A stretch of 64,000 nucleotides of DNA, taken from positions 18,064-82,063 of the forward strand of contig NZ_JACBAZ010000012.1 in NCBI RefSeq assembly GCF_013391475.1, read 5' to 3'. Shown piece after piece: positions 3,982-26,009 of this stretch. A program made the position numbers and the translations under genes. Origin of the DNA: Oceaniferula marina. GTDB taxonomy: Bacteria > Verrucomicrobiota > Verrucomicrobiia > Verrucomicrobiales > Akkermansiaceae. The notes beneath the pieces are model-generated. The model did no database searches and was not told where the DNA came from. It was given only the letters and a program-made list of their open reading frames with translations. How positions within the stretch are numbered: the stretch's first letter is position 1; each line of letters starts with the position of its first letter.

Positions 3982-5487
3982 TTATTTGTATTCTTTTTCC
4001 AGTGCTCCCATGGGGAACAACTTGTTTGGCACCCGTGCGTCGCGCATCAATTTTTCAATTTCCGCCACAACTTCGGGGTGCTGCTGGGCCACATCTTCGC
4101 TTTCTCCGATATCCTTGGCCAGATTGTAAAGCTTCAAGGGGGTCTTGCTTCCACTCTTCATCACATTCTCCCGGATTCCTTTCCAGTCACCCATACGGAT
4201 GACTTGCTGACCACGGGTCAAACGGCTCTCCCAATACAGGTATTTATGTTCTGGCTGATCTGCACCGGTCAACGCGGGAACAAAGGAAATGCCGTCGATT
4301 CCCGCAGGAGCTTTCACTCCGGCAATGTCACATGCCGTCGGTAAAAAGTCCCAGAGGGCGGCCACATGATCCGTGCTGCTGTTCGCTTTGATTTTCCCGG
4401 TCCATTTTACGACAGCGGGCACGCGGATGCCACCTTCATAGAGGTCGCATTTTTTACCACGCAAAAGGCCGTTCCCTTCAAAAAAGGCACGGTCATAGCC
4501 ACCGTTGAAGGTCGCTCCGTTATCGGAGGAAAAAATCACCACGGTCTTATCATCAAGATCCAATTCTTTGAGCAAGGTTCTCATTTTACCCAAGGTCCGG
4601 TCCATGCGGGTAATCATCGCAGCGTAGGTTGCCCTCGGTGTCTTATTCGGTAGATAACCAGCCCCTTTGACGTATGGTTCTTCTTTACCAAACTCCTTAC
4701 GGTATTTTGCCAGCGACGGTTCGTCTTCAGGAACCTGCAAGGCCACGTGGGGAACAGGCGTCGCATAATACAGGAAAAACGGTTTATCCTTACTGCGCTT
4801 GATAAAGGCAAGCGCCTCGTCCTCCATCACATCCGCAGCATAAGTCTCTCCGGTCAAACCACGGTCATTCCCTGGAAGCGTCACCTTCTGGTCATTCTTC
4901 CACAAGTAGGTGGGGTAATAGTTATGAGCGTTGCGCTGGCAAATATACCCATAAAAAAAGTCAAACCCGTGCCGGTGCGGGCTGCCCTCATCCTTGGGAT
5001 GACCCAAGCCCCACTTGCCGATACATGCGGTTGTATATCCCGCATCCTGCAAGAGTTCGGCCACCGTGGTTTCCGATGCCGGCATCGCCAGCTGCCCGGG
5101 GAAGCCGTCTTCTTGTTTATACTGCTGAAAGCGGCTTGCCGCCTTTTTCATATCGGGGTCCGAGTATTTCTCAGGCTTTCCTAACAAATGAGCCGAGTTC
5201 TCGCGGATCGCGGCATGACCCATATGCTTTCCTGTCAATAAAGCGCAACGTGACGGAGCACACACATTCTGACCGGAATAGAACTGGGTAAACTTCATTC
5301 CCTCTTCTGCCAACTGGTCAATATGCGGCGTCTTGATTTTCTTTTGCCCGTAACACCCCAGTTCGCCATAGCCGAGGTCATCGGCAAAGAAAAAGATGAT
5401 GTTTGGTTTATTGTTTTCCTTCGCTTGAAGGCCTGAGGCCGCCAGCAAGGATAATGCGATCGTGGATAATACGTGTGTGGTCTTCAT
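3982..5487 (-). CDS. Secreted formylglycine-type sulfatase
   Basis: Family S1 arylsulfatase-like enzyme that hydrolyses sulfate esters, probably on polysaccharides. Signal peptide MKTTHVLSTIALSLLAASG, then metal-binding ADDLGYGELG with D36 and D37, and the C-x-P-x-R signature CAPSR at 76-80, whose cysteine must be matured to formylglycine by an anaerobic or FGE-type enzyme not in this window. IGKWGLGHPK and FSSDNGAT are further family motifs. 501 residues. A terminator hairpin at 5540-5568 separates it from the PEP-CTERM gene upstream, so it probably has its own promoter in the 52-base gap before the start. The substrate cannot be told from sequence alone. Confidence 0.92.
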   Translation of the reverse strand: MKTTHVLSTIALSLLAASGLQAKENNKPNIIFFFADDLGYGELGCYGQKKIKTPHIDQLAEEGMKFTQFYSGQNVCAPSRCALLTGKHMGHAAIRENSAHLLGKPEKYSDPDMKKAASRFQQYKQEDGFPGQLAMPASETTVAELLQDAGYTTACIGKWGLGHPKDEGSPHRHGFDFFYGYICQRNAHNYYPTYLWKNDQKVTLPGNDRGLTGETYAADVMEDEALAFIKRSKDKPFFLYYATPVPHVALQVPEDEPSLAKYRKEFGKEEPYVKGAGYLPNKTPRATYAAMITRMDRTLGKMRTLLKELDLDDKTVVIFSSDNGATFNGGYDRAFFEGNGLLRGKKCDLYEGGIRVPAVVKWTGKIKANSSTDHVAALWDFLPTACDIAGVKAPAGIDGISFVPALTGADQPEHKYLYWESRLTRGQQVIRMGDWKGIRENVMKSGSKTPLKLYNLAKDIGESEDVAQQHPEVVAEIEKLMRDARVPNKLFPMGALEKEYK

Positions 5488-21084: not shown

Positions 21085-22305
21085 CTATTTCAAGCCAAGG
21101 TATTTCTCGAGCAGCGCATCCAAGGTTGCCTTATCGGCAACGAGCCCTTGAACCACCACTTTATCCACAATCAGCAGTTTAGGCATCACCGGGGTGCTCT
21201 GGACAAACACCCGGTAGTCGGCAACATTGCGCTTCAATAGTTCATCCACCCACTCGGAATCGCTGACAATCGCCTGCTCACCAACCATGCCAATTGCCAG
21301 AGACTCCACCACCTCCAGCGGCATACCCTCACTTTCAAACAACTGCCGATGAAAATCGGCAAACTTTGAGGGGTCGGCCCGCCAAACCTTCAGTGCCAAG
21401 CGAGCCAACTCACAGGCATGCTGGTGGTTCTTCGCGCCTTCGGGAAGATACTGGTTGCATGAGCGGTTCAAAGGGACGGGAAGGACGATCACAGCCAATT
21501 CCCCGGGATGCCGGGCCATTTCCTGCTCCAGCAGTTCGTGCATCTCGCGACAAGCGGCACAGGTATAATCAAAATACTTCACCAGCACGTGAGTAGCATC
21601 AGCGGAGCCCAAATGCGGCAAGGCCTTCACCCGGTAGGATTTCCCTCCATTTAAAAACTGCACCAGCCGCCCCTCCCCGCGGGCATGAATGTCCTTTGCC
21701 TTATGCTCAGAAAGATCAGCCGAAGGCTTACCGCCACCATGCAGCTGCAACACATCCACCCGGTGGGTTTCCGGCTCGGGCCCAAGATGCTGGATCAATG
21801 CCAAACTCAACACCGCCAGCATCGCCAAACCGGCACAAAACCACGCAACCATTCGCCGCTGCTTACCCCGCTCTCCAACAAGTAGACACAACCCCAGCAG
21901 AGAACCCAATGCGTGAGACGTCATGCAATACGGGCAGAACTGATCGAGAACAAACAACTGCAAGGCCGTAAACCAACACGCCGCCCAAAGACACAACCAG
22001 GCAGCACAACAACGAAATTTTCGCGCCAAATGCGACGCCGACCAAGGCCCCCAAAGGCTCGCCCATATCGCCAAATACAGCCCAAGCGAAAACAAACTCA
22101 CCGGAACCACCGCCCAGACCATCGACCACTTACTCCCCAACACATTGGAACAGCCGCTACCCGCCCCACAACCGGCCAGACTATCAATCCGTCCACTCAA
22201 TTTTTCGATCGACAGCCAGAGGCTCAATCCGGCAGCAAACACACACAAAACCGAAGCCGTCCAGCGCACACCCCTCCCCAGCCCTTTGTCGTGCGTTTCA
22301 GACAT
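21085..22305 (-). CDS. VKOR domain fused to DsbA-like thioredoxin domain
   Basis: Membrane disulfide-forming enzyme. Residues 15-170 are a four- or five-helix vitamin K epoxide reductase domain with loop cysteines C46 and C52 and the quinone-side active site CPYC at 124-127. Residues 235-406 are a periplasmic DsbA/thioredoxin-like domain with CAAC at 249-252 and a cis-Pro region STPVMPKLLI. The VKOR half would re-oxidise its own thioredoxin half. 406 residues. Its ATG directly abuts the TGA of the 22306 gene, so translation is coupled. It could shape the periplasmic redox state in which the secreted thioredoxin at 24385 works. Confidence 0.9.
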   Translation of the reverse strand: MSETHDKGLGRGVRWTASVLCVFAAGLSLWLSIEKLSGRIDSLAGCGAGSGCSNVLGSKWSMVWAVVPVSLFSLGLYLAIWASLWGPWSASHLARKFRCCAAWLCLWAACWFTALQLFVLDQFCPYCMTSHALGSLLGLCLLVGERGKQRRMVAWFCAGLAMLAVLSLALIQHLGPEPETHRVDVLQLHGGGKPSADLSEHKAKDIHARGEGRLVQFLNGGKSYRVKALPHLGSADATHVLVKYFDYTCAACREMHELLEQEMARHPGELAVIVLPVPLNRSCNQYLPEGAKNHQHACELARLALKVWRADPSKFADFHRQLFESEGMPLEVVESLAIGMVGEQAIVSDSEWVDELLKRNVADYRVFVQSTPVMPKLLIVDKVVVQGLVADKATLDALLEKYLGLK

Positions 22306-24384: not shown

Positions 24385-25068
24385 ATGAACATCCATTCCA
24401 CCATCACGGCCATCACCCTGGCCCTGACCGTAGCCTCGGCCCAGGCAAGAACCTGGACCAGCGCCGACGGCGCCAAAACCTTCGAAGGAGAATACGTCAG
24501 CCATACCGATCTCTCCGTCACCGTCATCAAAAACGGCCGTAAAGTAACCTTCAAACAGGATCTCATCTCCGAAGCAGACCGAACCTGGATCAAGGAAGAA
24601 GCAAAAAAAGCGGCTGAAGCCACCGAAGAATCCACCAGCTTGGACGATCAGGTGATCGGCAAAAAAATCAAAGGGAAAACCGTCCGGACCGGCGACAAAA
24701 AATTCATCACCGAAGATACCACCAAGGTCCCTCAATACTACTTCCTCTATTTTTCAGCCAGCTGGTGAGGCCCCTGTAAAACCCACGCTCCACAGTTGGT
24801 GGAGTATTACAACAAAAGCATCGCCGACAACGACAAGGTGGAATTCCTCCACGTCAGTCAGGATGACAGCCGGCGCGACGCCCTCAACTGGGCTCGCTCA
24901 GCCAAATTCCCCTGGCTCACCGTGCTCAGTTCCAAATCCAAAACCTCGGGGCTGGCGAAATACGATTCGGGCACTCCCAGCTACATCCTGATCGACAAAG
25001 ATGGCAACGTCCTCGCCAGCGATGAGAAAAAGTGCATCAAAAAAATCAAGGAACTCACCGGTAAATAG
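24385..25068 (+). CDS. Secreted thioredoxin-like protein, probable selenoprotein (in-frame TGA = Sec)
   Basis: Signal peptide MNIHSTITAITLALTVASAQA. Residues about 22-70 are an SHD1-like module (RTWTSADGAKTFEGEYV, ISEADRTWI). A thioredoxin-like domain follows to residue 227. Codon 128 (24766-24768) is TGA in the context S-A-S-W-TGA-G-P-C-K, exactly where thioredoxins have the first Cys of WCGPCK. The frame then stays open for 99 codons to TAG at 25066 and keeps the cis-Pro motif GTPSYILIDKDGNV. Downstream composition matches upstream. A hairpin at 24788-24804 fits a bacterial SECIS. I infer a periplasmic reductase with a Sec128/Cys131 pair. Alternatives: a sequencing error of TGT/TGC, or a recent nonsense mutation. 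Automatic callers would split it at 24768 or start late. Confidence 0.8.
24788..24804 (+). promoter_or_regulatory. Candidate bacterial SECIS hairpin
   Basis: CTCCAC (24788-24793), loop AGTTG, GTGGAG (24799-24804): a perfect 6-bp stem extendable by one G-U pair. The loop starts 25 nt after the TGA and has G as its second base. Known bacterial SECIS rules ask for a loop roughly 16-37 nt after the UGA, 3-14 nt long, with a G in the first two loop positions. It lies within coding sequence, as bacterial SECIS elements do. Confidence 0.65.
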
Positions 25069-25274: not shown

Positions 25275-26009
25275 ATGAAACGAGCCACCCTACATCGACT
25301 CCTATCAGCCATCGCCGTTCTGGCTTCCCTTGCCCTCGCATCTCCCAGCTTCGCTGCGCCAAGAAAGTCACTGCTCGATAACGACCCGGAAGTGGTCTAC
25401 ATCAACGAGCACCTCGATCGCACCATCCACCTGATGGTGGCGCAACCCGCCGCCGCTTATTCTTCGAAAAACGGAGGACGCAAACTCGGAACCTTCCCGG
25501 CAAACACCAAAGTCGAACTCCTCGCCATCGGAGGAGAAAATGCCTACCGGGTCAAAGGCAAAACCAAAAACAGCACCGTCTCAGGCTGGGTGTCTCCAAA
25601 GCTCCTCGCATCCAAAGACAAAAACTTCATCGCCAACCTGAAGCAACTCTACAAACGTCAGATGACGGTCAAGGAGCTGATCGAAAATCAGGATGTCGCC
25701 ATCGGTATGACTCTCGATGAAGTTAAGCTGTCTCTGGGAGAGCCGACTAAAACCGAAGTCAAACAAACCCGCAAGGGCTCATCCGGCAAATGGGAATACA
25801 TCATCACGGAAGAAGAAAAACACTACCAAACCATCAGAGATCCACGCACGGGTCGCACCTATCGCCAGGTTACCCATATCACCACCGAGGAACGCGAACG
25901 CACCACCCTTGAGTTCGAAGACGACGTGGTCACCTCCGTCACCCGTAAGCGGGATAACGGTCCAGGGAAGGTCCGCATCATCCCTGTGCCCATCGTCTGG
26001 GGCTGGTAA
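25275..26009 (+). CDS. Secreted SH3-like / BamE-like protein
   Basis: Start at ATG 25275, which gives signal peptide MKRATLHRLLSAIAVLASLA ending at SFAAP; 24 upstream in-frame residues are ignored. About residues 50-110 look like a bacterial SH3 fold (TKVELLAIGGENAYRVKG, GWVSPKLLA). The second half has IGMTLDEVKLSLGEPTKTE, the BamE/SmpA pattern, followed by a charged strand region. 244 residues. It follows the selenoprotein-like gene by 206 bases. Function unknown; it is probably a periplasmic envelope protein. Confidence 0.7.
   Translation: MKRATLHRLLSAIAVLASLALASPSFAAPRKSLLDNDPEVVYINEHLDRTIHLMVAQPAAAYSSKNGGRKLGTFPANTKVELLAIGGENAYRVKGKTKNSTVSGWVSPKLLASKDKNFIANLKQLYKRQMTVKELIENQDVAIGMTLDEVKLSLGEPTKTEVKQTRKGSSGKWEYIITEEEKHYQTIRDPRTGRTYRQVTHITTEERERTTLEFEDDVVTSVTRKRDNGPGKVRIIPVPIVWGW

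Follow-up and report, generated by a model that had tools for sequence, protein, structure and literature searches.

Among the 119 selenoprotein families and subfamilies inventoried in PMC13188914 (2026), the bacterial proteins that place selenocysteine (Sec, U) in a UxxC motif on a thioredoxin fold are given in Table 1 as PF00085 Sec-thioredoxin, cd02966 thiol-disulfide isomerase-like protein, PF08534 redoxin and PF00578 Prx-like thiol:disulfide oxidoreductase. Here we describe a gene from a 64,000-nucleotide stretch of the Oceaniferula marina genome (contig NZ_JACBAZ010000012.1, positions 18,064 to 82,063 of the forward strand; hereafter the window), the predicted product of which resembles these entries in having Sec first in a U-x-x-C site, a thioredoxin fold and Cys homologs, but adds an SHD1-type domain in front, predicted export and a tryparedoxin-type fold. 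The main text of the inventory holds no SHD1 or tryparedoxin-type entry and leaves Verrucomicrobia unmentioned, and the open-licence literature, including PMC12013277, PMC5029168 and PMC4807772, yielded no report of this protein; the newness of an SHD1-type plus Sec-thioredoxin protein holds against these searched sources only. As the window protein clears the Pfam thresholds for PF00085, PF08534 and PF00578, its kin may be hidden in such broad inventory entries. Since the same UGA is found in 24 related genomes, a lineage-wide Sec-thioredoxin family nonetheless appears to have been overlooked, and with it a domain architecture is added to the selenoproteome of a phylum unnamed in the main text of PMC13188914.

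The gene opens with an ATG at 24385, closes with a TAG at 25066-25068 and spans 227 codons interrupted by one internal stop only, a TGA at residue 128 flanked as YFSASW-TGA-GPCK and followed by 99 in-frame codons that include a GTPSY motif, as reported in the original prediction, which had been drawn from the letters of the window and had proposed a new exported selenoprotein. We conclude that UGA 128 is very probably read as Sec and that the gene quite likely encodes a 227-residue Sec protein, predicted to be exported and to combine an SHD1-type domain with a Sec-Gly-Pro-Cys thioredoxin domain, which would work as a reductase. The features of the locus are as follows.

24385..25068, + strand: whole gene, with Sec at the UGA and then TAG; homologs span residues 1-227.
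24385..24447, + strand: probable signal peptide, residues 1-21, with A-Q-A before R22, from inspection of the sequence by eye.
24448..24624, + strand: SHD1-type domain, residues 22-80, a small beta-barrel plus helix.
24646..25065, + strand: thioredoxin-fold domain, residues 88-227.
24766..24768, + strand: UGA, predicted Sec128, first active-site residue of U-G-P-C; TGA in 24 other genomes, Cys in other homologs.
24775..24777, + strand: Cys131, predicted resolving residue, invariant in 24 of 24 full-length aligned members.
24788..24804, + strand: selenocysteine insertion sequence (SECIS) hairpin, stem 24788-24793 with 24799-24804 and loop AGUUG at 24794-24798; compensatory changes and frozen codons, not in Cys forms.
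24976..24978, + strand: Pro198 in GTPSY, which we take to be the cis-Pro familiar from thioredoxin folds; at least 90% conserved among the 24 full-length aligned members.

Support for the selenoprotein assignment comes from the Sec machinery, the recurrence of the TGA, the hairpin that follows it and the selection acting downstream. All four machinery components that the original prediction had called for are encoded in the same genome (5.07 Mb, 97% complete), each above its curated cut-off: SelA (514.6 bits vs. 267.9), SelB (306.6 vs. 242.25), SelD (375.3 vs. 125) and tRNA-Sec (51.7 vs. 47), the last also called by ARAGORN as tRNA-SeC with anticodon TCA. The SelD gene (L072, G000:C1:756478-757398) itself carries one in-frame TGA and is thus predicted to encode a further selenoprotein; its context, SSAAG-U-AAKL, fits the UxxK motif given for selenophosphate synthetase in Table 1 of PMC13188914.

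Across 58 genomes, comprising that of O. marina and relatives from its genus, family and order, 25 (O. marina included) hold a family copy with an in-frame TGA at the active-site position, and every one of the 25 belongs to the set of 33 genomes whose SelB match exceeds the cut-off (Fisher p 1.5e-9, a value that ignores relatedness). No TGA copy comes from a SelB-negative genome among the matches listed; the weak best matches of G003, G039, G047 and G055 (E 6e-5 to 8.5e-4) lie outside that list, and G003 and G055 are SelB-negative. The tRNA-Sec gene, 89-93 nt long, scores over the cut-off in 21 of the 25 TGA genomes, and only such matches were counted because the model gives a weak signal in every one of 14 control genomes, five of them over the cut-off. 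The eight homologs read from SelB-negative genomes use TGC or TGT, in sites that read CGPC, CPPC and once CHVC. Cys at codon 128 in some homologs and the same TGA in others had been named beforehand as two outcomes that would support the prediction, and both kinds exist. Given that the SelB-less relatives examined use Cys at this position, Sec is likely a catalytic upgrade rather than a structural need. Cys forms also occur in SelB-positive genomes (L033 in G051, L040 and L065 in G043), and O. marina itself holds a shorter CGPC paralog (L002). Twelve Cys rows entered our comparisons, those caught by motifs in the fetched loci rather than all Cys homologs, and eight of them are full length in the 24-member alignment; a separate scan, in 78 of 80 loci, returned 80 sites with Cys and none with TGA, but its pattern demands Cys and so says nothing on Sec frequency. 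Recurrence of the TGA in 24 other genomes also disposes of a sequencing error at 24766, a worry raised at the outset, and global reassignment of UGA in the O. marina genome was rejected because TGA terminates three of ten neighboring frames checked.

On a tree built from 51 thioredoxin domains, 30 with Sec and 21 with Cys, parsimony requires seven Sec/Cys changes, at least four of them forced by starred branches; the bootstrap of this tree had not settled, L060, P0014 and P0024 were left out (missed by the motif), and, lacking a root, it counts the changes without giving their direction. Such repeated switches supply natural pairs in which to study the benefit of Sec to an envelope thioredoxin. 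The Sec forms vary further in architecture: in G040, a 3.6-kb stretch contains three genes for Sec-thioredoxins (L053 at 1216-1929, plus those with TGA at 4093 and 4588), of which one has an SHD1-type domain, another is short and another has a hydrophobic helix at its C-terminus. L023, L024 and L030 lie in open frames some 400 residues long whose extra N-terminal part begins with a hydrophobic stretch, and are possibly membrane-anchored versions. The sites of two distant Sec forms, L055 (937-987) and L056 (936-986), read U-G-G-C and U-G-A-C.

SelB binds hairpins that follow the UGA, and a G in the loop is a feature of bacterial SECIS elements. Nineteen nucleotides after the UGA, the Sec forms keep such a hairpin, CUCCAC-AGUUR-GUGGAG, with compensatory changes. 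Of the 31 TGA rows listed, 28 were aligned without gaps over 51 nt (in their first 60 nt L024 and L029 are each identical to another row, and the motif did not catch the second copy in G028); the stem is paired in 89.3% of cells and five of its six pairs show changes on both sides. None of 500 shuffles reached any of the five hairpin measures, versions slid along the alignment pair at 28-60%, and the signal is absent from the 12 Cys rows (47.2% paired). Codon choice in the upper stem and loop is frozen in the Sec forms, with CCA for 23 of 25 Pro, CAG for 27 of 27 Gln, UUR for 27 of 27 Leu and GUG for 26 of 27 Val, against shares of 24%, 47%, 18% and 25%, respectively, in the remainder of these genes (30 rows), a freezing of synonymous codons that selection on the protein would not by itself produce. 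The tight hairpin and frozen codons together make a ready signature for finding further members of the family. In the O. marina genome the core CACAGTTRGTG occurs at five sites versus four for a reversed-pattern control, and the window gene alone among the five has a TGA upstream and long open frames on both sides, so that no further selenoprotein emerged there from this search. The distant form L055 retains the hairpin with its stem altered to CGAAAC/GUUUCG.

The sequence 3' of the UGA is, by comparison of TGA forms, under purifying selection. The ratio of nonsynonymous to synonymous substitution rates (dN/dS) after the UGA is 0, 0.10, 0.13, 0.18, 0.20, 0.30 and 0.36 in seven pairs, several of these values being rough as dS exceeds 1; in an eighth pair dS is saturated and the ratio of the corresponding proportions (pN/pS) is 0.45. 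Five pairs allowed measurement on both sides of the UGA, and in four of them dN/dS is lower downstream than upstream, in one higher. Position 128 (always Sec or Cys), P130, C131, P136, L138 and G207 are invariant in the 24 full-length aligned members, and the decay of the downstream half that would have undone the original prediction is thus not seen.

That gene callers would break the gene had also been foreseen, and the database copy of the window protein indeed has 127 residues and ends at W127. In a protein-database search (7999 candidates scored; 120 of 248 matches listed), 31 of the 120 listed relatives, this copy included, stop at the residue just before the Sec position, with lengths of 123-146 aa; the stop was verified as TGA for two fragments (P0065 = L001 and P0064 = L015), the others being judged by their ends. 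Among the matches listed, the six with at least 50% identity to the window protein (P0064-P0067, P0072 and P0097) are all such fragments, and P0064, the 129-aa truncated product of the culturable Sulfuriroseicoccus oceanibius, is a 'hypothetical protein' in one source and 'SLA1 homology domain-containing' in another. Annotation therefore cuts the family at its catalytic residue, leaving 31 of 120 listed proteins without the catalytic domain and one named after its SHD1 half.

The structure model of the thioredoxin domain is confident, and tryparedoxins are its nearest matches among solved sequences and folds; both profile score and fold assign it to the Thioredoxin_8 or tryparedoxin type, whereas the classical thioredoxin model TIGR01068 gives 25.8 bits, below its NCBIfam cut-off of 96.8. 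Relative to tryparedoxins, nucleoredoxins and Thioredoxin_8 proteins (PF13905; 4fyu, 1fg4 and 9fov), the domain is alike by sequence and fold, but the match to those solved structures includes no SHD1 domain and the window protein has Sec for the first Cys; eukaryotic tryparedoxins and nucleoredoxins are, moreover, not predicted to be exported. It shares its fold and predicted compartment with the TlpA-like envelope thiol-disulfide oxidoreductases ResA, StoA and DsbE but falls far under their NCBIfam cut-offs (dsbE 33.3 vs. 123.15, StoA 31.5 vs. 210 and ResA 25.8 vs. 170 bits), and redoxin_TUGYCR (NF053656), also a thioredoxin-fold (seleno)protein, has a different motif and is matched at 16 bits where 100 are required. 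By eye, the N-terminus is hydrophobic with an A-Q-A, and relatives have similar N-termini; the predicted signal peptide and periplasmic location are read from these residues, of which 1-16 have low confidence in the structure model. For residues 22-80, the model gives a predicted SHD1 fold, 20% identical over 56 residues to SHD1 of yeast Sla1 (PF03983, 2hbp), from which it differs in its predicted bacterial exported context, and the relative P0101 passes Pfam SHD1 (24.5 bits vs. 23.7). The SHD1-like domain of the original prediction accordingly stands on relatives and model, though not on a Pfam match of the window protein itself.

Several observations count against this picture. Pfam SHD1 is not called in the window protein even at E <= 1, and the RimP SH3 model is weakly matched by 17 of 31 relatives versus 10 of 31 for SHD1. 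For the hairpin stretch of the window the folding energy is ordinary (z -0.22) and, not being significant, was rejected as proof of a SECIS; Rfam gives no match at the hairpin site. Four of the 25 TGA genomes (G005, G007, G010 and G011; 81-92% complete) have no tRNA-Sec over the cut-off, the Sec form L030, which is not among the 24 full-length aligned members, has a U-P-S-A site and hence no second active-site Cys, by real change or sequence error, and gene order across the 17 regions with the gene (of 18 fetched) shows no partner.

In the proposed mechanism, which for its first steps follows the Escherichia coli paradigm of SelA, SelD, SelB and tRNA-Sec action, the charging of tRNA-Sec would fall to SelA and SelD, and its delivery to the UGA to SelB, which would bind the hairpin just downstream. 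Once the protein is exported, Sec128 would attack a disulfide or oxidized thiol on a protein of the envelope, the adduct would be resolved by Cys131 via a selenenylsulfide, a putative membrane thiol donor would re-reduce the enzyme, and the SHD1 domain would hold or select the client protein. Such an envelope-reductase role is the simplest reading, and we consider it an even call.

The same selenoprotein may instead supply electrons, in the manner of a tryparedoxin, to a peroxidase or methionine sulfoxide reductase that is exported, or act as a disulfide isomerase paired with a VKOR-thioredoxin fusion, rather than as a general client-selecting disulfide reductase, a possibility that we hold open but somewhat doubtful. 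Tryparedoxins feed peroxidases and are, as described above, the closest solved sequences and folds, and a VKOR-thioredoxin fusion, by family a putative envelope disulfide-forming enzyme, is encoded about 2 kb away (21085-22305, - strand; Pfam VKOR 45.2 bits, Thioredoxin_4 27 bits); fold similarity, however, does not fix substrate, and the VKOR gene is near in only two of the 17 regions (G002 and G012), both from one genus. The gene hemL adjoins in four regions (G002, G007, G008 and G012), again of a single genus, and because both neighbors are so limited no partner is claimed.

Decoding of the UGA as cysteine or tryptophan by a suppressor or variant tRNA is highly improbable: Cys homologs do use TGC or TGT at the same position, and Cys-charged tRNA-Sec variants occur in some bacteria, but SelA and Sec-type SelD score strongly, the UGA is accompanied by a hairpin of the SelB type, and UGA terminates other genes, which speaks against general suppression. 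Least credible is a true stop that would leave a 127-residue secreted SHD1-domain protein and a decayed or separately translated remnant, a reading with which the 31 truncated database entries, the normal use of UGA as a stop elsewhere in the window and a TTG-started 90-aa downstream frame agree, but which is at odds with purifying selection after the UGA, an active-site column and C131 invariant in 24 rows, TGA confined to SelB-positive genomes among the matches listed, a conserved hairpin and a downstream frame that alone would lack the first strands and active site of a thioredoxin fold.

With UGA 128 read as Sec, we tentatively offer a broader and speculative view, in which Verrucomicrobiales would harbor unrecognized envelope selenoproteins whose SHD1 adaptor guides a Sec-tryparedoxin to selected clients among the exported proteins for targeted redox repair driven by selenium, with lineages upgrading Cys to Sec, or reverting, as the Sec machinery is gained or lost.

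The next gene downstream (25281-26009, + strand) looks secreted and has a weak BamE-domain match below the Pfam cut-off (17.4 vs. 23.2 bits); its homolog, 66% identical, follows the Sec gene in G008 as well.
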